From NCBI RefSeq assembly GCF_001625215.2, contig NC_030382.2, forward strand, positions 49,193,364 to 49,257,363: 64,000 bases of DNA, written 5' to 3'. The DNA comes from Daucus carota subsp. sativus. Its lineage: Eukaryota > Streptophyta > Magnoliopsida > Apiales > Apiaceae. The notes under the pieces were generated by a model. The model was not told the DNA's origin. It searched no databases and saw only the letters and a program-made list of their open reading frames with translations. Made by a program: the position numbers and the translations under genes. Shown here one piece after another: positions 13,780 to 37,698 of this stretch. The first letter of the stretch is position 1; every line of letters starts with the position of its first letter.

Positions 13780-13810
13780 AATAATAATAATAATATCTTA
13801 ATTGCATTTG

Positions 13811-13903
13811 AAGGGCCTCAGAGATCTTGGTGGACAGATATCATCAGATGGAGCATAAACCCCATCAAGAGTAGCAAATATCTTTCTTACATCACCAGCC
13901 CAC
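13811..13903 (-). ncRNA. U24: U24-like box C/D snoRNA, copy A
   Basis: On the minus strand: box C (GTGATGT, 13895-13889), a first guide GATATTTGCTACT before a D'-like TTGA, box C' TGATGA, a second guide CCACCAAGATCT, then box D (CTGA, 13821-13818). GGGC/GCCC sequences form a terminal stem. Both guides are fully preserved relative to copy B. Because the promoter is missing from this copy, expression is uncertain. Confidence 0.75.
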
Positions 13904-13955
13904 TTTTAATCATGAAAAAATATTCAAAAAAAATAATTTGAAATAAGGAGAGTTA

Positions 13956-14590
13956 GAGCAACTCCAACAGCTTACTTATATCATGTCCTAAATCCAATTA
14001 TAAGGAATGTGACATAAATTAGTGCTCCAGCAGTGTCTTAAGAATATCTTAAATCACTAGGATCCTCCTTCCATGCCTTATTAATGAGGCACCACTAGCC
14101 ATGCCTTATTTGATTTCTTTAATAAAAAAATCATCTCTCTCTTATTGTAACTTATTTTCTCTCTCTTCCTTCCATCTTTTATCAATCTCTTTCCAAATTT
14201 ATTATTATAATAATAATAAGAAATGAATTATAAAGATCATTGTTGGAGTTGAAATACAAAATCTTGTCCTAAATCACTAGGATTCAATATTTTATACTCC
14301 CTCCGTCTCCCTGAGTAGTATACATTGGGGGACGGGGACGCGGCACGGACTTTAATGCTCCTGCAAAGTGTAGTTGTGCAATCTATTTTTAAAATTTTTC
14401 TTTTCTGAATTAAAGTTTGGATGTTATATTTTTATACAAAAAAAGAAAATCTCAAAAATAAGTTACGAAACTATATTTTATAAGAGCATTGAAATGCGTG
14501 TCGAGCAGTTAAAAAGAAATGTATAGAATTAAATGGGACAGAGGGAGTAATATTTATAATGAAGACACTAAGACACTGCTGGAGATGCTC
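13956..14590. mobile_element. Tourist-like MITE, itself hosting a Stowaway
   Basis: Termini are GAGCAACTCCAAC and a complementary TGGAGATGCTC. The flanking TTA duplications are at 13953-13955 and 14591-14593. It carries a nested Stowaway-like element at 14297-14547. Comparison with copy B shows that it landed in the box D end of a box C/D snoRNA, between GGAGAG and the first guide-side bases. Confidence 0.85.
14297..14547. mobile_element. Stowaway-like MITE nested in a Tourist-like MITE
   Basis: Termini are CTCCCTCCGTCTCCC and a complementary GGGACAGAGGGAG, flanked by TA on both sides (14295-14296 and 14548-14549). It lies wholly inside the element at 13956-14590, so it is the youngest layer there. 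Confidence 0.8.
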
Positions 14591-14786
14591 TTAGATGGTA
14601 AACATGGATAATTCATAGGGAATAAAAATGATTTTTTCATCACACTTTTCAAGTATTTTATAAAAAACAAATCAAACAATTTTATATACCCTGTCACCAA
14701 AGAATTCTATTCAGAAAAATTCAGAGATAAAGCTAGTAGCATATACATAAATAAATACATATATGCTACATATCTTTGTCACCTAA

Positions 14787-15054
14787 GAGAATCTCCAACT
14801 CCAAAAACCCTTAGCTAAAATTATACATGTGACATCTAGGAGGCATCTAGATCACTAGATAATACTTATAAAAATTATCTAAAAATTATACAACTCCAAC
14901 CATGTTTAGTTGACTATATTTGTCGAATCAAATAAGCCCCGGAATATATTTTTATACGAGCAAATTTATAAATAATCTTTTTGAAGCCTATACATGTTCT
15001 CATAGCAAAAAATTTACATAATCCATATACCCATCAATATAACCAGAGATTCTC
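14787..15054. mobile_element. Tourist-like MITE with empty site in copy B
   Basis: Termini are GAGAATCTCCAAC and GAGATTCTC, flanked by TAA (14784-14786 and 15055-15057). The paralogous copy B has the uninterrupted sequence GCCTAACGATAG near 16540, which is the pre-insertion site. Confidence 0.85.
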
Positions 15055-15430
15055 TAACGATACTTTCGATGGAACTCGATTCAGGAATTGCAATAGTAGG
15101 CTTCGAAAATACACAAAATCTTCATACAAATCAAAAAAAAAAATGTAGTTTCCCAACGTCCAAATGAACCATTACGAGACGAGTAGCGTGAGAACAATAT
15201 TTTATAGCATCACAAGTACAAATACTTGCAATTAAATAAAAAAAAGGAATTAGTCAAGCAAATAAAGCACACAAAAGAAATATAGACTCGTCACCGTTGT
15301 CCAACATCGAATTCACTAACGTAAACACTTGTAAAAATGGATATAAGCATGTTTGTTTGTAATATATAGCTGTTTTTATGGTCTCCAAACTAAACAGACA
15401 GGGAGGATATAAAAGAAAAAACAGCACTCT

Positions 15431-15496
15431 AAATGTTGCTTCAAGGGAACGAGTCGTTAAGAAACTGATTTAATTCTTCGACCAGATAAAGAAGCC
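15431..15496 (-). ncRNA. H/ACA-like hairpin, copy A
   Basis: Counterpart of the hairpin at 17041-17106. The GCTTC/GAAGC lower stem, a shortened GGTCG/CGACT upper stem and the ACA trinucleotide three bases from the 3' end are retained. The homology to copy B ends immediately upstream, so its own promoter is missing. Confidence 0.4.
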
Positions 15497-15510
15497 TTTG
15501 CTTGTGTCTT

Positions 15511-15879
15511 GTATTTTTTATAAAAGTTTTTTTACCTTGATCTTTTTTAGTACAAATTCGGATCAATAATTTTTATATTAAAACAAAAAAGAAATAACCT
15601 CACATGTATCATATCTTTAAAGATAGACAGTAGTATTAACTCCAAATTTTCTTTCATTTCTCATTAAAGGCCACATCTTCAATAAGTACATCTACAGTCA
15701 TCTTCTACAATAATTTTTGACGAAAGAAAATAATGTCCACGGAATGGATTCATTAATTTACAAGTTATTGTAGTTTTAAATGGTATATCCATGATTTTCG
15801 AAATGACATCGAATTTATATACCAATGGTTATTTATCACCTATAAATGGATAAAATAGGCCTCATAAAACAGATCTCAT
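15511..15879. other. Spacer between snoRNA cluster copies
   Basis: No gene is seen. From about 15840 the sequence resembles 11290-11375 and belongs to the downstream end of the duplicated unit. Confidence 0.4.
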
Positions 15880-16195
15880 TACAAATTAAAGTGCCACATT
15901 CAAAAATTATCTGTTCTCAAAAGATTTAACTACAACAATATGATTCTTCAAAAAAAAAAACACTATAACAATATGAGAAATTATTACATCCAGCAAAAAA
16001 TATTCAAAAACATTAGTATTTGTTCAACTTCAATAAGCAGGCAGCAACTTAAGGACTTGGTGAATTAAGCAAGAACTTTCTAACACCAATGTAGCAGTCA
16101 GTTTCAAAGTCACTCACAAAGAAGTAAAAATTCATATAACATATATATAATACAATTCAAAAAAAAAAAAACAATTAACATATTAACTGCATTAG

Positions 16196-16287
16196 AAGGG
16201 CCTCAGAGATCTTGGTGGATAGATATCATCAGATGGAGTTTAAACTCCATCAAGAGTAGCAAATATCTTTCTTACATCACCAGCCCC
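16196..16287 (-). ncRNA. U24: U24 box C/D snoRNA (two guides to 25S rRNA)
   Basis: Minus strand: box C (GTGATGT, 16280-16274); guide GATATTTGCTACT followed by D'-like TTGA (16253-16250); box C' TGATGA (16231-16226); guide CCACCAAGATCT directly before box D (CTGA, 16206-16203). GGGGC and GCCC flanks form the terminal stem. The two guides are antisense to adjoining 25S rRNA stretches, AGATCTTGGTGG and AGTAGCAAATAT. This is the diagnostic arrangement of U24 (yeast snR24, human SNORD24), which directs 2'-O-methylation of neighbouring sites in the large-subunit rRNA. A perfect palindrome, GATGGAGTTTAAACTCCATC, lies between the two halves. Confidence 0.88.
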
Positions 16288-16331
16288 ATTTTAAATATCA
16301 AAAAAAATATTCGAAAACAATAATTTGAAAA

Positions 16332-16407
16332 GGAGAGTCAGAAGTAGCTGGTTGGTAAACATGGATAATTCATAGGGAATCCGAATGATTTTTTCATCAC
16401 ACTCTCC
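16332..16407 (-). ncRNA. Box C/D snoRNA with a 25S rRNA match
   Basis: Minus strand: a six-base terminal stem GGAGAG/CTCTCC encloses box C (GTGATGA, 16400-16394) and box D (CTGA, 16341-16338). The first antisense element, TCGGATTCCC, is complementary to GGGAATCCGA of plant 25S rRNA and precedes a degenerate D' box. The second element, ACCAACCAGCTACTT before box D, has no rRNA target I can place. In copy A the box D end has been split by a MITE. I cannot assign a family name. Confidence 0.7.
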
Positions 16408-16648
16408 AAATATTTTACACAAACACAATTCAAACAAATGTATCTACCTTGTCACCAAAGAATTCTATTGAGAATAATTCGGAGCTAAAGGTAGAAGCAC
16501 ATACATATATAAATACATACATACTACACATCTCTATCGCCTAACGATAGATCCCTTAAATCCACCCGAGTTGGAATTCGATTCAGGAATTGCAATATTA
16601 GGCTTCAAATATACAAAAAAAAAAAAAAAATCATACAAATCAAATACA

Positions 16649-16720
16649 AAAATGTAGTTTCCCAACGTCCAAATGAACCATTACGAGACGCACCGGATAG
16701 CGAGGGGAACATTTATTCTA
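16649..16720 (-). ncRNA. Conserved block, possible H/ACA snoRNA 3' hairpin
   Basis: About 42 bases are almost identical between copy B (from 16649) and copy A (from 15141), far better kept than the flanks. On the minus strand the block ends CTACATTT, placing an ACA three bases from a putative 3' end. A GTTCCC/GGGAAAC lower stem with a bulge and a CGTC/GACG upper stem can be drawn. No H box or 5' hairpin was identified, so this is tentative. Confidence 0.35.
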
Positions 16721-16820
16721 GCTTCACATGAACAAATATTTGCAATTAAATGAAATAACAGCAAATTAATCAGGAAAGTAAAGCACACAGAATAAATCAA
16801 AAAAAAAATAAAGGAGGATA

Positions 16821-16907
16821 GAACAACTCAGTCCCTTAGATGTTCATTAAAATTGCGATCATATTCGCACATCATTACAGGTCTGTATAGACTCATCACC
16901 GTTGTCC
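16821..16907 (-). ncRNA. Box C/D snoRNA with two guides to 18S rRNA
   Basis: Minus strand: a terminal stem (GGACAAC with GTTGTTC) encloses box C (GTGATGA, 16899-16893) and box D (CTGA, 16831-16828). The guide before box D, GAACATCTAAGGG, is complementary to 13 bases of 18S rRNA (CCCTTAGATGTTC). A second element after box C, ACAGACCTGT, is complementary to ACAGGTCTGT, which lies just upstream in the same 18S region. By the box D plus five rule, the first U of CCCUU would be methylated. The internal part of this snoRNA is deleted in copy A. Confidence 0.8.
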
Positions 16908-17040
16908 AACCTCGAATTCACTAACGTAAGAACTTGTAAGAACAGATATAAGCGTGTTTGTTTGTATGTATATAGCTGTTTTGATGATCTCCAAACTAAA
17001 CAGAGAGACAGGGAGAATCGAAAGAAAAAAACAGCACGCT

Positions 17041-17106
17041 AAATGTTGCTTCAAGGGAACGAGTCGGTAAGAAACTGATTAATTCTGCCGACCAGATAAA
17101 GAAGCC
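17041..17106 (-). ncRNA. H/ACA-like snoRNA hairpin, copy B
   Basis: On the minus strand a lower stem GCTTC/GAAGC, an internal loop and an upper stem GGTCGG/CCGACT form a hairpin. It is followed by AACATTT, which places the ACA box three bases from the end. The distance from the internal loop to ACA is about 14-16 bases, as required for a pseudouridylation pocket. It is conserved in copy A. A 5' hairpin and H box were not found, so it may be a half or atypical H/ACA RNA. Confidence 0.5.
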
Positions 17107-17179
17107 TTTGGAAAACCAGATCTGTGAAACAGAAGATTAGTTACATGAGAGAGATAGCGGCGAGAAGAATGAAAATATT

Positions 17180-17370
17180 AGAACCCTAACTGAGATTGTA
17201 TTGTGCGGATAGATGTGAATTCCATGTGGCGAGAGGCTTTTGTTTATATAGACCAAGCCTGTCACACCTTGGGCTAGGTTACGGTCTTTTTTCTGGTCCA
17301 TTGGGTTTGTGGTGTCTCCAGGCCCAGTTTAAGAGATTAAAGTTGTTTACCTCATGGCTCATGGGCCTGT
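17180..17370 (-). promoter_or_regulatory. snoRNA-cluster promoter (TATA, telo box, site II)
   Basis: Reading on the minus strand: site II-type TGGGCY motifs in either orientation at 17362-17367, 17321-17326 and 17270-17275, a TATATAAA TATA box at 17249-17242, and a telo-box-like TTAGGGTT at 17189-17182. The combination of telo box and site II is established for plant ribosomal-protein and snoRNA gene promoters. Position and direction fit transcription of copy B starting near 17220. The region also lies about 430-620 bp upstream of the divergent asparagine synthetase start, so a shared promoter is possible. Confidence 0.65.
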
Positions 17371-17799: not shown

Positions 17800-20700
17800 A
17801 TGTGCGGAATTCTAGCAGTTTTGGGTTGCTCTGATGATTCTCAGGCCAAAAGGGCTCGTGTTCTTGAGCTCTCCCGCAGGTACTTTTCTACCCACAATTC
17901 ATTATTTTTTTCTAATCTCTGAAGTTTTGTTAAAAATCAGTAAAAAATTGATATTCAGTGCTGTTCAACTCTTGGCTGAACTCCAAAATTTGAATATGTA
18001 ATTTGCTGGACCAATCTTGTTTTAGCCACTGTTTGTATGAACATATGTGTACAATCATATCACATACTTCTTAATTTGTGAACTATTCAGTGTAGCTTGT
18101 AAATTTATTAGTTAGTATAGAAGAGAGTCAGAGGCAAATGTGGTTGATGCTGATTTTTAGCTTATAATCTTCATGGAGCACAGACACAATAAGTTGATTT
18201 ATGTTGCATAATCAAACAGACTGAAGCACCGTGGCCCGGATTGGAGTGGTCTTTACCAGTATGGTGACTCTTACTTGTCTCATCAAAGGCTGGCAGTTGT
18301 TGATCCTGATTCTGGTGATCAGCCTCTCTACAATGAAGATGAAAAGATTGTGGTCACCGTAAGTCTTTAAGTAAACCTGTTCAAGTATTCATTCTTCATA
18401 AAATTCAATGTCTTTATGTATATTAACGAATGTGTTCTGTTTCTGAAACCAGGTGAATGGAGAAATATACAACCACGAGGAACTACGAAAGAGTTTGCCT
18501 AATCACAAATTCAGAACGGGAAGCGATTGTGATGTTATTGCTCATCTTGTAAGTGGTGCCCCAAGGAAATTCTATAATTAGAAGTGAATGGTTGAAAAGA
18601 ATTAACAAACAACTCATTTTGCTGGACATGAATATAAATCTTTTCCTCCTAAATCGGAATAATCTTTTAATTACACTTACCTCGGATGAAATTTCAGTTT
18701 GCAATGATTTAACTAATTTATGTTAATGGAATTTGCTTGCATTAGTATGAAGAGCATGGTGAGAACTTTGTGGACATGTTAGATGGAGTGTTCTCCTTTG
18801 TGTTACTGGATACCAGCGATAATAGCTTCCTTGCTGCTCGCGATGCTATTGGGATCACTTCGCTATATATTGGTTGGGGACTTGATGGTAATCTCTTCTG
18901 GTTAAGTTAAAAATTTGAGATAATTGGAGATGAAAAATGATACTTTATAAAAAAAGAAGAAAAATTATACTTTGAATTAGTTCTATAATATGATTTTATT
19001 TCCTGTCTTTAGGATCAATATGGATTTCTTCTGAAATGAAAGGCTTAAACGATGACTGCGAACACTTTGAGGCCTTTCCGCCAGGACACTTGTATTCTAG
19101 CAAGAGAGGAGGTCTTAAAAGATGGTACAATCCCACTTGGTTCTCTGAAGCAGTTCCATCAGCTCCATATGATCCAATTGTTCTAAGAAATGCATTCGAA
19201 AATGTGAGGCTCTTTTGTATAATTATATTACAATCATGATAATATTGACGAGCATAGGCTTACAATGATAACTAATGTCATGTATACAAATATCTGCAGG
19301 CTGTGGTCAAAAGACTGATGACTGATGTACCATTTGGAGTTTTGTTATCTGGTGGTCTTGACTCATCGTTAGTTGCTTCCATTGCAGCTCGTCATTTTGC
19401 AGGCACTAAAGCTGCCAAACTATGTGAAACACAGCTTCAATCCTTCTGTGTTGGCCTTGAGGTATACCTGTTGCTTTAATGACAGATAACTGTAAATTGT
19501 TTTAAAGTACTTTAGTCTTCCCTATGCTTCACATCATTTATGGGACAGGGATCACCAGATTTGAAGGCTGGAAAGGAAGTTGCTGATTATTTGGGAACTG
19601 CTCACCATGAGTTTCATTTCACTGTCCAGGTATTTGACAAACCACTGTATATCATGCTTATTGCATCTAGGTATTATTATAATTGACGAGGTCTAGTTTT
19701 AATTAGTTCTTACTCGGCAGGATGGCATAGATGCAATTGAGGATGTTATTTATCATATTGAAACTTATGATGTAACGACAATTAGAGCCAGCACTCCTAT
19801 GTTTCTTATGTCACGTAAAATCAAGTCGCTAGGAGTGAAAATGGTCATTTCCGGTGAAGGTTCTGATGAAATTTTTGGGGGATACTTGTACTTTCACAAA
19901 GCTCCCAACAAAGAAGAATTTCACCGCGAGACATGTCAGAAGGTAATAGACTTGATTATTTTTATTATATTTTATTATTATAGAAACAGTTCTGTTTAAG
20001 AGTATAAATTCTCCACTGAAGAAATTATTGTTATTGCATTTTAATATGCAGATAAAAGCCCTCCACCAATATGATTGCTTGAGAGCAAACAAAGCAACAT
20101 CTGCTTGGGGTTTAGAAGCTCGGGTTCCGTTTCTGGATAAGGAATTCATCAATGTTGTAATGAGTATTGATCCTGAGTGGAAGATGGTAACGAACAACTT
20201 CCATCCTGCTGTCTTGTTTTCAATAACTATTGCTTGCCAAATTAGAGACTTCATTGGCGAAATAGAGAACTTCAGTTTAGATATGAATGTGTCCTCATAT
20301 TTCAGATTAAGCCGGAGGAAAAACGAATCGAGAAGTGGATACTGAGGAAGGCCTTTGATGATGAAGAACATTCTTATTTGCCTAAGGTTTGAACAAATGA
20401 CTTGCCTTTGTTTACATAACTATCTGTTGATCAGAGCAAGCTGTGATGGATGTATTATTGTGTTTCACAGCATATTCTATATAGGCAGAAAGAGCAGTTT
20501 AGTGATGGTGTTGGCTACAGTTGGATCGACGGCCTTAAAGCTCATGCTGAACTACATGTATTGCATCCTCTCTGAACTTATTAAATATTTTCATTATTGG
20601 CATCTGAAATAAGCTCATTCTGAATACCATTCAGGTCAGTGACAAAATGATGCTGAATGCTCCTAATATCTTCCCGCACAATACCCCTGCCACAAAGGAA

Positions 20701-21088
20701 GCATATTACTACAGAATGATTTTTGAGAGATTCTTTCCACAGGTGATTGAGATTAGTTACATTGTCATAAATAGTACAACGTTTCAAGTCAATTAGAAGT
20801 TCTGGTAACCTATTCGTCTATGTATTTAATTTGTTGAAGCAGAAATCAGCAATATTGACCGTCCCTGGTGGAGCAAGCATAGCTTGCAGTACAGCAAGGG
20901 CTGTTGAGTGGGATGCTTCATGGTCAAGTAACCTTGATCCGTCTGGTCGGGCTGCACTTGGGATCCATGATTCAGCATATGAGACAAAATTGTCATCCAC
21001 TGTGAACACTAATTTGGCTACAAAGATTGTTGACACTGTGCCTCAGATGATGGAACGAAGCTCAACCCAAGTCACGATTCAAAGCTAG
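17800..21088 (+). CDS. ASN: Asparagine synthetase (glutamine-hydrolysing)
   Basis: Thirteen GT-AG exons (17800-17879, 18220-18358, 18453-18548, 18746-18887, 19013-19203, 19300-19461, 19549-19629, 19721-19942, 20052-20186, 20306-20386, 20471-20557, 20635-20742, 20843-21088) give 589 residues, the usual plant length. The start is set by MCGILAV, because Cys2 becomes the N-terminal nucleophile of the class II glutaminase domain. NGEIYNH and GSDCD belong to that domain. The synthetase half has the ATP-pyrophosphatase motif SGGLDSS and SGEGSDE. The enzyme transfers glutamine amide nitrogen to aspartate using ATP, making asparagine for nitrogen transport. An in-frame ATG at 17707 would add 31 residues and bury Cys2, so it is rejected as the functional start. 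Confidence 0.96.
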
Positions 21089-21924
21089 TTCTCCCATTTC
21101 GGGGAATCCACTTATGTGATAGAGTTGATCTATCTGCATAGAAGTTGAAGCAAGTATCTAATATATGCAGCTATGTGAACTATGCAGGCGCCATGCAGAG
21201 TGAATAAACTACCTATTTTTGGTAATGCTCGTTCTATAGGTAAGACTCTGGTGGTGCGCGCGTTATTCTTCAAGCAGTATGTTCTTTGTAAGTTGTGCAT
21301 CTTGTTCAAGCCTCACCTACAAATCTTGGACCTTTGATGTTTATATTTTCCTGTTGGATCAATCTAGTATGTTTGGTGGTTCTATCAGACTCTGGTCCTG
21401 TAAGTTGTAATGGCAGTTTACACTTTGTTAGTGCCCAAGCCTGAAGCCTGGTTTGTATCTTTACTGCTTTGCATTATTATATTCCTGAGAAATATCTTAC
21501 AACTTGTGACAATAGTGCAGTTGATTACTCTCTATAAATTTTTGGTTCTTATCTTAAACTCTCCCCACATGAAAAATGTTTAATTTTATTAAAATACCGA
21601 AAGTGATACTTCCATAACATGCAAATGTTACTGCTTGCCAGTTGCAAGTCATTTTCATTGATAGTCACTTATATTGACCAAGCCTCTGGCATAATATAAA
21701 CAAGACACGAGTCCGTGAACAACACAGCTTCTTAGAAGTTATTTCTTTAGATTATGAAAATAATACATCTCCAGATTTCTTTTTCTTGGAGAAACAGAGT
21801 GAACATTACAGCTATATAAACAGATATATTTTTATGTAAACAGCCTCTATTTTAGATCATATGATATTTAGAAAAATTAATGAGAAAACATGACTAGATA
21901 CAAATGGTAATATAGTGAGCTAAA
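21089..21924. other. Convergent 3' flanks of ASN and TBL genes
   Basis: The 3' untranslated region of asparagine synthetase and the 3' end of the minus-strand TBL gene meet here. No further gene is seen. Confidence 0.4.
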
Positions 21925-24900
21925 TCATTGATAAAACAGTGCAGTATAGAAGAGCTGATTCCAAGTATCAGGTAATCCAGGGAGGCACCAGTGACTACAA
22001 TCAGCAGAATGGTCAGGATTGGCTCTCTGTTCCGGGCTCAAATCGCCACTGTAAATAGACGGATGCGCGTCTTTACGCATAGCAGAGAGCATAGTTATGT
22101 CAAGTATATAAGCTGGGTTACTCATGTTCCTTATCACTGCATCAAGGACCTTCATTTGGCCTGGATACGCGCCTGGGTAAGCTGTGCCACTCATTGGTGT
22201 TTTCTCACCGTAGCAACTTTTGGCCACTGAGGTTGCGCCTGCACTCCACTCTGACGGGCTGCAAATTCAATCAAATCACGATCATTATCTTGTATAAATG
22301 GCCGTTCTTACAATCAGTTGTGATCAAGGGACTAAGCTTAAACTCAATCACGGTTATGCAAACAACAAAATGTTCAACAGAAAATGCCTAGTAGATCAAG
22401 TCAATCTCAATTAAATGTATATAAAAAGATAAATTCGAATCAAACTAGGTCAATAAAAGAAAGGATCGGAACAAATGCATTTGGGTGAATATTGTATTGG
22501 CTGTACAATTTATTTGTCACTATCAGGCAAGTTCACATGTGAGTATATCACCGACGAAACAAGTGGTTAAAAATAGGACTAAATAACAGAGCAAAAAGAG
22601 CGGCTCCATTTTCTTTTTCGATGGAGACAGATTTAACAGCAAGTGATCACTGCCCCCATAATCTGTACAATTATACATATCATCTCTGATATGCAAGGTC
22701 GACTTCATATTTTACTTTACTATATGAGGACATAAATCCAAAGACTTTGGTGATGCCTCTCCAAAGTCCTATTTATTTTTCACTAGTAGGTGATAAGTGA
22801 GTATAACATTAAGGGGGCGTATTCAACTGGAATTTCGGGTTTGATCATCGTAACTTTGCATTATCTTTATTTAAGTTTCCCACCTAATGGGATTTGAATT
22901 TAGAAAAGATGGCGAACTGGAGACAGGCTGCAATGTAGGGAAAGCAATGAATAAGGAAAGTTATGGACTAGTCAGTTGAGAAAGTGGATTAGGTAATAAT
23001 CATAGGCCCGGCCATTGGCAAGTTGCATTCTAATTAGTGATTACAGCTACGATGTTGGACCCTGCAATCCCCAGTTGGTCCTTTTTGTTTTTTATCTCCT
23101 TGTCTGTGTGTTGTGTAGGGATGACAATCCTGATCCGAGCTAGACCCCTTTATCAAGAGTAACAAAATCCGAAAATGACGCGAAGATAACTTGAGTAGTA
23201 ACGGAATGACACATTTATGTAATAATTATTACTTCGAACTAATAGCACAAGTTCATCATCAAGTTTAAAAATATCAGAAGAACGAGAATTTAACACATTT
23301 ACGACCAAGAACACGACCTGAAAGTTAAAACTGACGCATCTAAGTTTATGTGCGTTATATGCAGGATTTAAAGATAAAGAGGTGAGTAGGGATAAAGGAA
23401 AAAGTATATATCTATGAACATACTTGTAGTGTGTGGGAGAGATGGATTGAAAGAAAACTCTGGTTTTGCTTTTGTCAACATTTGCATCAACCCATTTTGC
23501 CCATGTCCTCAGTCCTCTTTCTAAGGCAACCAATCGTTCCATATCTTGGTACAACTGCCCCTCCGCTTCCATATAGTCCCACCTGCATATTTAACATGGC
23601 ACACTTTTACCCCCTCTTCTCTATAAAATCGCAATTCTAACTTCATTTACAGAAACAATCAAACAGCAAGTCGTTTACAAAATTGTTAAAACTTAGAGCT
23701 ATAACTATGATGGCCCAACCAAATAATGTTCATGTCCAAAGGGTCATTTATTTATTTAAATGCTTCTGTGCTCTTAAAACGAACTCAATTCCACCAAGGC
23801 AAACTTAATGTGTCCATATAATTTGATCACCTAACAAGTTCTCGATTTCTCCTAGCTGTCTACATTAAAGTTTTCCCAGTACGTGAAGCTCCAGCATGCC
23901 AACTAAAGAGACATATATACTAGCAAGGCTTAAAACTCCTTTATAACAATTTGATTAGGGAAGAATTATCTGTGTCAACAATTTACACAAGTTTTTATGT
24001 ACCATGAACATGCTTCTATAAGGTCCACAATTAAGGTCTGTGTGAATATTTAAATTTCCGTAAATTCATCCAAAACCAAAAAAGACTAAATTAGCAAGGA
24101 ATAATTTGTTGGCACACAAGGTAGGCTATAACTTGCTCACCCTTGAAGAGATCCTTTGTGTGTCCACCAGTGACCCGTATTAAACGACAGCACATCTGCA
24201 TTTTTCCAGGCACCTCCATTTTTCGACATATCTTCCAATTTCAATATTCTTTTTCCTTGCACTAAATCAATATCCACCAAATAGGGTGCTCTGTAAAACT
24301 GAACTGCCACACCATACTCCTGCAACATACCATAACAAAACCCCAATTATCCCCTGTTTGGATGGCTCCATTATTCCAACCAATCATCATGATCAAGTCG
24401 ACCAAATAAATAAAGCAAATGCATAGTAATTAGTATAGCATGCTTTTGTAGAAACTTACAATAAACTTAAAGCTTGAGAAAGGATCTCCCCTAATGAACT
24501 GAGTTGGTGAACGAGGCACACTCGCTGATATCATACATATCAGTGATTCCCATTGGTTTCGGCCTAATGAATCACCCACAAACATTATATTCTTCCCTCT
24601 CATTTTTATCAAAAACTCCTCCCCGTCAAACCTGCTTATACAAACACGTCAGAATAATATACGATCCTGATAAGCCCCGTAACTTAACAATATCCATAAA
24701 ATATTTTTAAAACAATTGTAAGAAAAACAAACCAAACACAACATTAACATGTTATGACAATGCTACCATACCTAGGTAGCTCACAGTTGACTGGCTTCCA
24801 CCGGTATTTCAAGTAATCTGTATCGGGTCGGCCGAACATTTGACAATTGAATTCCGGGTCAATAATGGAGCAAGCAGAGGACTGATAAACCGGGTAAGTA

Positions 24901-25100
24901 TCATCATAGACCCAAGTGCCTATAAACAAAGCACAGCTTGTTTGGTTGGCCTGGATCATTGGGCTCCGTTTGTAAAAAGTGTTGTGGTGCCTGCTCTTCG
25001 CTATCATAACCGATGAAGCTATCTGTATTTGGAGCATATATATTACTAAACCTGCAAACATCTTAGTAATATAACACGGCCCTGAACATGTAACAGCCAT
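21925..25100 (-). CDS. TBL45: Trichome birefringence-like (PMR5/TBL) protein
   Basis: Five exons on the minus strand (24772-25100, 24460-24631, 24141-24319, 23424-23582, 21925-22258) give 390 residues. A hydrophobic segment near the N-terminus (around residues 14-30) is a signal anchor. A Cys-rich PMR5N domain follows with WVYDDTYPVY and a FNC...GRPD...YRWKP pattern. The PC-esterase domain then has GDSL (129-132) and the C-terminal DxxH motif (DCSH, 366-369). Known TBL proteins are Golgi polysaccharide O-acetyltransferases acting on cell-wall xylan, mannan, xyloglucan or pectin. The substrate cannot be read from sequence. The symbol is inferred from the conserved neighbourhood with PP2C and PHF5A genes. 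The intron at 22259-23423 is the largest. A GA run lies in the leader at about 25118-25140. Confidence 0.92.
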
Positions 25101-25497
25101 TGTACAAGTTTGTTCAGCGAGAGAGAGAGAGAGAGAGAGATGGCAAGGTTTAAAAGGTGGGGGTGTCTGTGTAACTGTGTATATTATATACAAAGAGAGA
25201 ATTGTAGAACACTAGTACAGTAGAATGTTTTTAAACATAAAATGCATTTTATGCGTGTTTTAGTATGTATATGTGTAGGCTGGTTTATTTATCTAAGTAA
25301 ACAATGGATGATATGTAAAACATTTTTCTTGAAATGGAGCAATCAATTAAAAGCCCTGCGTCTCCGAGTGGACTAATTAATATACGAGTTTAGTTGGTAA
25401 ATTATATTCCCCCGTCCCATAATATATGTCTTTTTTAAAAAATTACGCACATTAAGAAAACATTAATTAGATAAAATTTTCACATTTATACCCCTAA

Positions 25498-33000: not shown

Positions 33001-36000
33001 TTTGCATAAATAATTTGTCTTTACAGGAAGCCAAATGCCTATTATAGTGGCATTCTCCACTTGCATGAATATTGAATATAAAGTGATGTAGAAAAAATAA
33101 ATTTGCATATAACTGGATTATGTCCGTATTGGTTCAAATCACAACTATAGTCTCAACGATTTCATATAAAAGAGTTACCTGTTTGCATTTAAAATTGCAG
33201 AACCAGTATTTTTTGGGATAACTTTCAAGCACATGACCTTTCATCCTTAGGCAACTGATGTGATCTGTATCATAAAAGTTATGTATTATAAGAGATGTTA
33301 ACATAATGAAGACAAATATAATATATTGAATGGAATATAAATCATCACTTAATTATTTAGCTAACACACATTGCCGTGCACACTGATCACAGTTGATAAC
33401 ACTACTATTTGTGAATACTTCTATGTTCCCACTGTTTTTGCTCTGGCCACAAATTTTGCAACAACATGATGGGCAGAACCAGTTACCAGTTGGAACCCCC
33501 TGCATATTAACCAAATGCAGTAAAATATCAATTTCTAGACAGAAGTAATTTATTCATGTATACGTTGTAGAAAGTGAAACTGGGAAAGGAAAAACTAGAA
33601 AATTATAAACGGGATATATGACTTTCAAAAAGACATACCTTCAAACCAAGGCAACGAGTATGAAATGTAGATGGACATCCATCACACAATAATAAATTAC
33701 CCCCAGAATGACAGACAGAACATAAAACTAGAAAATTATAAACGGGATATATGACTTTCAAAAAGACATACCTTCAAACCAAGGCAACGAGTATGAAATG
33801 TAGATGGACATCCATCACACAATAATAAATTACCCCCAGAATGACAGACAGAACATATGGAGTCTGTCTTATTGTCATTCGGTTTACCCTTCACCTCCAG
33901 CCTCCCTCTATTGGAACCTCTTGTATTTAAATCTCGCCTCAGTTGTAACTGGCACTCCAGCAGGGACCTACCATTCTCCAAAAATATATTGGCTGATGGC
34001 TGATGGCAAGTACTGTTTGCATGAACTTCAAAATTATGCAGAGTAAAAGTTTCTTGGCAGCAATTGCACTTGATTCCGTCACGAGTCACCCTACCTTCTG
34101 CCATCATCTTGCAATCCTTTCCGATGCGATATTGCACTTTCTCACTAGGTAAAACAACTTGATTGTCCATTAACCAAGATAATATAGTACAAGGATTTCT
34201 GTGTGATGAAGATGCATCCACCACCTCGCGAGCTCTTTTGCTTGACCGCAACACACGGTCTGAAACAGAGACTGGCCTGTTAATATTATCTTTAGACTTG
34301 ATAGCTTGAATTTTCTTTGACTTATTTTCCTTCGTAACGGAATTTGAGGACAGAGAGGCAAGATGTAGGGAACTACTCTTTCTTTTCTTCTTGTTTTCGC
34401 AATGAATCTCTTTCCGAACCTCCTCACTTGCTGAAGGTGAATATCGAGCCTCTCTAGGAAGTTGTACTTCTGCTAGCTTCCCAACATGTATTTCTTCATC
34501 TATATAGCCCTTGCATGCTGATCGGAGTGAATCGTACATCTTCCTGCTAGGTGAAATGTACCTGTACCTCAACTTTTTTTTGGTTCGGTAGTGATATAAT
34601 TTCCACCCAACAGCGAACAGGTGCTTCTTTACTTTCAATTGCATATCCTTAAGCATGCTACCTGTTTTCCATTTACTATGGTCACCCTTTTCCTTGGTAA
34701 CATGAGTATGATAGTTCATAACAGCTTGAGGACAATATTCAGGTTCAAATATAAGTTCCTCATCAGGTGAAGGTCCTATGAGTACACTTTTGCGTTCTTG
34801 TGAGTGCTCAGTTGGAAATAAGGTGGCATCAGCTGCATAAGATAGACAATTTTGCACATCTTGGGGAAACATAGAAACAATGTCAGAAGATGATGTTTCC
34901 ATATACTGACAAACTTCGAAAAGTGATCGAAATTCTTTTTCACTGCCACCATCCTTAGGCATGATAAAACGGTATCTCCATGTTTCTTTAGTGTATTCAA
35001 CTTTCCATCCCAAAAACGAGAGATGTTTCAAGACATTTAATATATGTTCCTCTGACGGTTGACGCCCACACTTACTAATATTGATATATTCAGTAACAGC
35101 ATCTTCGTAAAATTCAGGTTCTGGGAGGCAAAATGGCACCCAATTGTCTTGTGCTTTCTCTTTTGGTATTTTAAGGTCTGTAAAGGAACACAATTCTTTA
35201 GATGCTCCTGCCTTCAAATACTCACACACGTCAACAAGTGATACAAAATACTTCTCAGGAGAACCAGGTTCAATGTACCGTAGTTGTTGCATACCATTAA
35301 TTCTTTCATTGTTCCTGTACTCAATTTTCCAGCCCATAAATAAAAGATGTTTCCAGACATTATTTTGAACCTTAAGATATCGCTTATTCCCAGACTTGAA
35401 CAATCTGCAGTATTCATCAACTGCTTCAGGGCAATAGTCAGGATCAGAAACAATGTTGGGGCCAGCAGGATGCCAAACATTGTTCTTAGTAATTTTGGAC
35501 ACTTCAAGACTAGCGTTAAATGATTCTTCATGGTTGGTACAGGAATTAACCTTGGACACCTCACCAGTCATAGAAGGTGCAATTGCCATTGTTCGAGAAC
35601 TCGCACATGCTATTTCTTCATCTATGGTTTTGACTGAACTAGACAGCGGCATCTTCCCCAACCTATCAAATGTCGTAACAGTGGCCAATTTGTCCCGATT
35701 GATCTCATCACAAGGCTGACGATATTCTCCCTTTTCATCAACATGCAAGAACTCACTTCTATTTAAGAAGCCATTGCTGCCGGGTACAACAGCAAGAGAG
35801 TCAACAAAGCATTCCTTATTCTTCAATACAGCATCCAAAATAGGTCCACTTAGTTCCATTAAATGACCACAATCATGCAATGTATTCCCCGAGGAGCTCG
35901 AGCTCAGAGTCGGAAAAAAATCTTTCAAAAAGAGCTTAATGTTATCCACAATTACCTCTAACAACAATTCTCTCCAGATATCAGTCAAGCAAGAAGTCCA

Positions 36001-37698
36001 CTCCTTTAAATTGTCAAATCCGCTTCTGGCCCTCACATCATACCAAATTTGCTTAACAGAAACTAGAATGGGCCAATCTTTCTCTATTTCCTCAATCAAT
36101 TCAAGGAAGATCCAGTTCCCCCGAGGCTTCCAAAGTTCAGTTTGTTCATCCCAGTCCTGACTAATTCTCAAATTATCCTTGTGAGCTGCCATTTCATCAC
36201 CAATATCTGGAAAGAAAACATTCCGCTCTGCTGAACCATCTTGATGGTCTAAAATCACTCCTTCCCACCATGCATCCGAATAATACACATCAACACATTG
36301 TCCATAGTGGAGAAACCATATACTAAAATAACATGGAGGTGACAACGGCCGTATCCACCCACGATAATTAGACATTGATTTGTTGTTGATTTCAATGCCA
36401 TCAACGATAGAAGGAACCTCTATACGTTCAACAAGTTTGGTTGAACTGTATTCATCTAATAAAAGATGATCATACTGGACCCATCTAGCTGAACTTTCGG
36501 TAGCAATGACAGTTCCACTGTGCCATGAACCTAGAAATCCCTCGTCGGTACAGCTCCTGACCTTCATGAAAGTTCAAAAAGTATTTAGAGAACATACTAC
36601 ATTTAACTTGAGAAATAACAGTTCTGAAAAATATATATAAATGGGTTTTGATGCAAAAATTTCAGACTGCCAAAAAAAAAAGAGGTAAAATTAAAGAAAG
36701 CCCTCCAATCAAATCACTATAGAATCATTTTTTTTAACGTAGGAACCCGAAGCCGCTACCCTTTGGGTGCGCACGGGGTAAACTTAATTTCTAATCTGAT
36801 ACCCCCAGATTCATCATCAGGTTGCTACAACATGCATGTAGTCATAAATATACAGACTTAGAAACTATATAATCCAACAAAATGCATGTAAATTTTAAGC
36901 AAAATTGCAAGAGAAAGAGAAATTCTCAGCCAAAAACAAGAAGATAAATGAAAAATCTCAATAAAAAATATGAATATAGAAACCTAAAACCCTATACTCC
37001 ACGTAGATCATGTTATAGAAAGTCAGTACCTAAACTTACGAACCTCAAATTCATCATCGATTTGTTATGCATACTTGAAAACAAAATCATACAAGTACAG
37101 ACCTAAGCATTGAGAGACTAACGAGATGCATGTAAATAAAATCAAGATTACTCCTAAAAATATACTTTATCTTAAAACCCATTCACAGCCAGAACAAGGA
37201 GAGGACATAACAATAACAAGAAACAGAAAGGGTAAGAGAGAGATCACAATAAAAAATAGAAAAGGGCCAACTTAAATTATAAAAAGAAACTAAAAGGAAG
37301 CACTGCAACTACGTCAGAATATAAAAAGTCTTTACCAAAGCCATGAATACCAAATTGAACATAGAATTGTTACAACTTACAACATGCATACACAAAAACA
37401 CACTGTCATCATAAATAAACACGCCTCAGTATTGTATAACCATGCATTATGATGCGTAGATATTAAATCGAATTCAGATTTACCCTCTCCCTCTTGGGAA
37501 CAAGATGGGTCGAGAATTTCAGTGGTATACTCCAGATTCTCACGGGATGAAATTAATTATTAATTTCTGCAAATTGAGGGTTAAAAGAGATTAAATATGT
37601 ACCTCAACTTTCTGATGCTCTAAAAGCTTTCTTCGATTCACTGTTGTCATAGCTTCTCTTCTCCTTTGTTCATCTTCATCTTCAGGATCAAAAGCCAT
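30040..37698 (-). CDS. Agenet/PHD-finger/GNAT chromatin protein (IDM1-like)
   Basis: Exons on the minus strand: 37603-37698, 33772-36561, 33370-33499, 33179-33264, 32474-32718, 31705-31791, 31519-31618, 30811-31015, 30601-30724 and, less surely, 30040-30163. The model gives about 1328 residues. The N-terminus is acidic then basic. An Agenet/Tudor-like region follows (about 35-170), then three repeats of a roughly 110-residue module containing W-K-x-x-Y and RYI (about 410-720). Next comes a Jas/TDBD-like Cys patch, a PHD finger (ICSVC...CDGC...HTRC...CPSC, about 934-974), a second Cys-rich finger and a GNAT domain with RRRGMC. The family includes IDM1, a histone H3 acetyltransferase of active DNA demethylation. 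A 133-bp duplication affects the PHD exon-intron junction. The C-terminal end is uncertain. Confidence 0.85.
33591..33856. repeat. Perfect 133-bp tandem duplication across an exon end
   Basis: Bases 33591-33723 and 33724-33856 are identical. The unit contains the last 85 bases of the PHD-finger exon, its GT donor, and the first part of the intron of the PHD/GNAT gene. The second set of exon sequence and donor thus lies inside the intron. Confidence 0.95.

Follow-up and report, generated by a model that had tools for sequence, protein, structure and literature searches.

Several plant systems described earlier resemble the locus examined here. The snoR12-U24 pair is a conserved angiosperm cluster, known from rice (cluster 19, PMC5122169), Arabidopsis (U24.2/snoR12.2), and tomato (SlsnoR12-SlU24a, PMC7762058). 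Experiments in Arabidopsis have confirmed a U24 with two guides, together with its sites; there, the target positions 25S C1447 and A1459 lie 12 nt apart and loss of U24.2 lowers methylation at both and also at G1460, an extra site at position 6 (PMC8053127). The same study lists 18S G1434 and U1448 as the sites of snoR19 and 25S A945 and A2127 as those of snoR12. The plant RNA snoR19 is the counterpart of U25 and snR56 (PMC2780460). Promoters that combine Site II, TATA, and telo-box elements are common to plant snoRNA clusters and ribosomal-protein genes (PMC4660826).

We analyzed a 64,000-nucleotide stretch of the Daucus carota subsp. sativus genome (contig NC_030382.2), referred to as the window. 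Scanning the whole window gave five Rfam matches that exceeded the curated cut-offs, each of them on the minus strand (Table 1). Four distinct snoRNA families lie within 710 bases of a single strand, in what we call copy A, at 1.5–1.8 times their Rfam cut-offs. Since the E-values of these matches range from 1e-8 to 1e-13, on one strand and within so short an interval, chance matches are no concern. The fifth match is a second U24, in a partly duplicated cluster that we call copy B. We conclude that the locus is almost certainly an ordinary plant polycistronic snoRNA gene running leftward from a Site II/TATA/telo-box promoter, with a promoterless tandem copy downstream that has decayed except for its U24. 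Because the linkage of snoR12 with U24, the two-guide U24, the polycistronic layout, and the promoter type have all been described for plants, this is a cluster of a known kind, and its linkage, U24 type, and promoter are already in the literature. A preliminary description of this DNA had proposed a polycistronic cluster of snoRNAs that share one strand and include a two-guide U24, and the Rfam calls, guide pairing, and promoter motifs bear this out. It had also held that no protein explains the conservation. We found no Pfam domain between 8.4 and 13.8 kb, and the flanking protein genes lie from 17800 (plus strand) and beyond. The analysis thus provides accurate coordinates for four non-coding genes, or five with copy B, that gene finding based on proteins would miss.

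Table 1. Features of the snoRNA locus, with positions counted from the first base of the window
Feature	Positions	Strand	Basis or remark
Core promoter, Site II and TATA elements	17250–17362	minus	motif scan, definitions from PMC4660826
Telo-box-like AACCCTA (TTAGGGTTC on the transcribed strand)	17182–17188	plus	motif scan
Candidate H/ACA hairpin L1, ACA-like end	17046–17105	minus	folds; no Rfam match
Possible 3' hairpin of leader RNA (GCTGTTTT/AAAACAGC), ACA at ~16968	16963–17040	minus	folds
SNORD25 (plant snoR19, yeast snR56 family; box C/D)	16822–16906	minus	Rfam RF00054, 71 bits
snoR136 (box H/ACA)	16650–16786	minus	Rfam RF02410, 64 bits
Second candidate H/ACA-type hairpin (CTACCTT...AAGGTAG-AT-ACA)	16426–16506	minus	fold z -3.0
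snoR12 (box C/D)	16333–16406	minus	Rfam RF00204, 66.1 bits
U24 copy A (SNORD24; box C/D, two guides)	16199–16285	minus	Rfam RF00069, 62.9 bits
Copy B, tandem partial duplicate of the cluster	13780–15500	minus	~74–88% identity to copy A
MITE-like insertion in copy B snoR12, 635 bases	13956–14590		inverted repeats; TAA on both sides
U24 copy B (SNORD24)	13814–13900	minus	Rfam RF00069, 60.6 bits

U24 had been placed at 16196–16287 on the minus strand from the letters alone, and a search with the Rfam SNORD24 covariance model, proposed at the same time, recovered it at 16199–16285 (E-value 9e-9; cut-off, 41 bits) and found a second match above the same cut-off in copy B. Boxes C, D', C', and D and the terminal stem were all present in the model alignment and the sequence, and box C (TGATGTA) is the same as in the Rfam consensus. 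As in the SNORD24/U24 family (RF00069), the two guides are antisense to adjoining segments of the large-subunit (LSU) rRNA, which had likewise been claimed beforehand. The guide before box D forms 12 bp (CCACCAAGATCT/AGATCTTGGTGG) and the guide before D' forms 13 bp with one G-U pair (GATATTTGCTACT/AGTAGCAAATATT), both with an LSU fragment designated L001. By the D+5 rule, the guides select a C and an A on this fragment that are 12 nt apart, the spacing known from Arabidopsis. The RNA differs from the RF00069 consensus in its D'-C' interval, which is 12 nt longer and forms a perfect small hairpin (GATGGAG/CTCCATC in copy A). U24 would guide fibrillarin methylation of 25S C1447 and A1459, and probably of G1460.

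We note that the rRNA references used for target pairing were of two kinds. For 18S and for most of 25S, pairing was read on Arabidopsis working sequences, and only the L001 segment and a second one, L002, are independent of these. L001 scored 324.6 bits against the Rfam eukaryotic LSU rRNA model, while L002, the first 120 bases of which we read as LSU, had no Rfam rRNA match at the cut-off. Both are RNA-phage contigs of a viral collection that begin or end in eukaryotic-type 28S rRNA sequence, and they are probably chimeric assemblies. Searches of public contigs, in collections without plants, returned neither 18S nor full LSU rDNA and no relatives of U24.

The other two box C/D RNAs also have targets known from Arabidopsis. 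The 18S guides that the preliminary description saw at 16821–16907 are those of SNORD25, and its 25S match at 16332–16407 is snoR12. On the 18S working sequence, the D+5 position of the SNORD25 D' guide is G1434 and that of the D guide is U1448. SNORD25 here thus shares both guides and both targets with the SNORD25/snoR19/snR56 family (RF00054), with no notable differences. The snoR12 D guide forms 11 bp, with its D+5 position at the equivalent of 25S A945, both on L002 and on the 25S working sequence, and its D' guide points to the equivalent of A2127, within the offset of that working sequence. All seven targets implied for the box C/D RNAs are in accord with the Arabidopsis RiboMeth-seq table for U24, snoR12, and snoR19 (PMC8053127). 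These matching guides suggest that the RNAs methylate the same sites as in Arabidopsis, with snoR19 directing fibrillarin to 18S G1434 and U1448 and snoR12 directing it to 25S A945 and A2127. The H/ACA-like hairpins reported on this strand include snoR136, which scored well beyond its cut-off of 43 bits and has an H box (AGAATA) and an ACA tail (ACATTT).

In its arrangement, the cluster is like the angiosperm snoR12-U24 clusters in gene order, strand, short spacer, and polycistronic layout, as well as in having a TATA box and promoter boxes upstream. Here SNORD25/snoR19 and snoR136 precede snoR12, a difference from the clusters of other species that may be one of description only. More than one snoRNA lies on one strand behind a single TeloSII/TATA promoter, which is the criterion for a polycistronic gene, and a single precursor is predicted. 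Judging from the promoter type, RNA polymerase II would transcribe the cluster leftward from ~17.2–17.4 kb. The precursor would then be cut into SNORD25/snoR19, snoR136, snoR12, and U24. One or two unnamed H/ACA RNAs might also be released from it.

In the motif scan, Site II elements (TGGGCY) begin at 17362 (plus), 17326 (minus), and 17270 (plus), and TATATAAA begins at 17250 (minus). The AACCCTA motif lies downstream of the TATA box and lacks one base of the strict telo box (AAACCCTA). A telo box/Site II/TATA promoter upstream of the cluster had been claimed earlier; the Site II and TATA elements were found as described, and the telo box is present in this imperfect form. As in TeloSII promoters (PMC4660826), the Site II, TATA, and telo-like elements are no more than 200 bases apart and just upstream of the cluster, and the single base in the telo box is the difference from the strict TeloSII consensus. 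With these elements present and all four copy A RNAs well above cut-off with boxes and guides intact, we regard it as very improbable that the entire locus, copy A included, is a silent relic and that the working snoR12-U24 cluster of the species lies elsewhere. This is despite the fact that snoR12-U24 paralogues are the rule (Arabidopsis U24.1/U24.2, PMC8053127; tomato chromosomes 3 and 6, PMC7762058) and that copy B demonstrates decay at this very locus.

Copy B was missed by the preliminary description, although the range of 13.8–17.2 kb in which it suggested searching covers it. The duplicate starts at the leader hairpin, ~0.7 kb downstream of copy A, and a motif scan of copy B upstream of its U24 found no promoter elements. 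Nothing of its SNORD25 is left beyond box C and the first guide bases, its snoR136 falls short of the 43-bit cut-off at 23 bits, and a MITE-like insertion has cost its snoR12 the D guide and box D. This element is flanked by a TAA target duplication and has the ends GAGCATCTCCA, and a Stowaway-like element with the ends CTCCCTCYGTCYC is nested within it at 14295–14549. U24 alone has been kept, and copy B thus shows a duplicated snoRNA cluster partway through decay. Its U24 has every box and the two guides intact, and rRNA pairing is as in copy A. The two U24 copies differ by four substitutions in 87 nt, none of them in a box or guide, compared with 15 in 89 nt in the adjoining aligned flanks (Fisher p = 0.013), although this is one comparison only and the p value is modest. 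The lower number of changes could reflect selection on a working second U24 gene, whose expression would come from copy A read-through or from an unrecognized promoter. We hold this reading tentatively, as a serious possibility but not the favored one: promoter elements are absent upstream, and the gene lies ~2.4 kb downstream of the copy A U24 with the MITE-like insertion in between.

Beyond the Rfam-matched RNAs, the leader of the cluster (~17108–16963) folds as two H/ACA-shaped hairpins in both copy A and copy B. The first of these, L1, has a lower stem (GCTTC/GAAGC), a pocket (TTTATCTG / TCGTTCCCTT), and an upper stem (GTCGG/CCGAC). Besides the two hairpins, the leader has an ACA, but the hinge (AACATTTAGCGT) has no canonical H box (ANANNA). 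A sensitive Rfam scan of the leader gave chance matches only. The L1 pocket can form 4+7 bp, without gaps, flanking the uridine of U6 snRNA in GGAACGA-U-A-CAGA, at a pocket-to-box distance of 16 (criterion, 14–16 nt). In mammals, this position is pseudouridine 40 (PMC1276797, PMC7960923), and the U6 segment printed for plants is identical to that printed for humans. The 4+7 bp level was reached by 7 of 2000 shuffled guides anywhere in the rRNA and snRNA set. When wobbles and mismatches were allowed, a 25S site scored 31.0 and U6 30.0, with the 95% shuffle level at 29.5, so that U6 is singled out for L1 only by the gap-free Watson-Crick measure. For the second leader hairpin, no target scored above shuffled guides, and no relatives of the leader RNA were found in public contigs from collections without plants. 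It is conceivable, but on balance doubtful, that the leader is an undescribed plant H/ACA RNA that pseudouridylates U6 at the equivalent of the mammalian position 40, under a ribosome-biogenesis promoter. If true, this would identify the guide of a spliceosomal pseudouridine in plants.

The second candidate hairpin (16426–16506) folds well in copy A but is decayed in copy B, where its fold z is -0.5 and the ACA is lost. Its target search gave nothing above shuffled guides. A mir-297 match at 16425–16518 was rejected, as its score of 21.9 bits is below the 90-bit cut-off and it arises from TATG repeats. In the middle spacer and the tail (15560–16195), sensitive Rfam scans likewise yielded chance matches only, and the tail folded no better than its shuffles. 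Overall, we consider it somewhat more probable than not that the leader hairpins and the second candidate are transcribed spacer that folds by chance, and not H/ACA RNAs. Similar hairpins occur at 87 of 1389 minus-strand ACA sites, the leader (z -1.3) is not significantly beyond its shuffles, and an Rfam match and a canonical H box are both absent. On the other hand, the annotated and accepted snoR136 folds no better (z -1.26), and the gap-free L1 pocket around the mammalian U6 pseudouridine position, together with L1 guides that are identical in copy B, argues against chance folding for that hairpin.

An asparagine synthetase gene identified by Pfam (17800–20700, plus strand, ATG at 17800) is divergent from the cluster at a distance of ~550 bases, so that the cluster does not lie within its introns. 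An intronic host gene was rejected on the same grounds, as this nearest upstream gene is oppositely oriented. The Site II boxes might act in both directions, on the cluster and on the asparagine synthetase gene. Farther along the window, we observed a PMR5N/PC-esterase (trichome birefringence-like) gene of several exons at 21000–25211 (minus) and a large open frame at 33736–36573 (minus) with Agenet, DUF7028, TDBD, and PHD domains, which corresponds to a plant chromatin-type protein.
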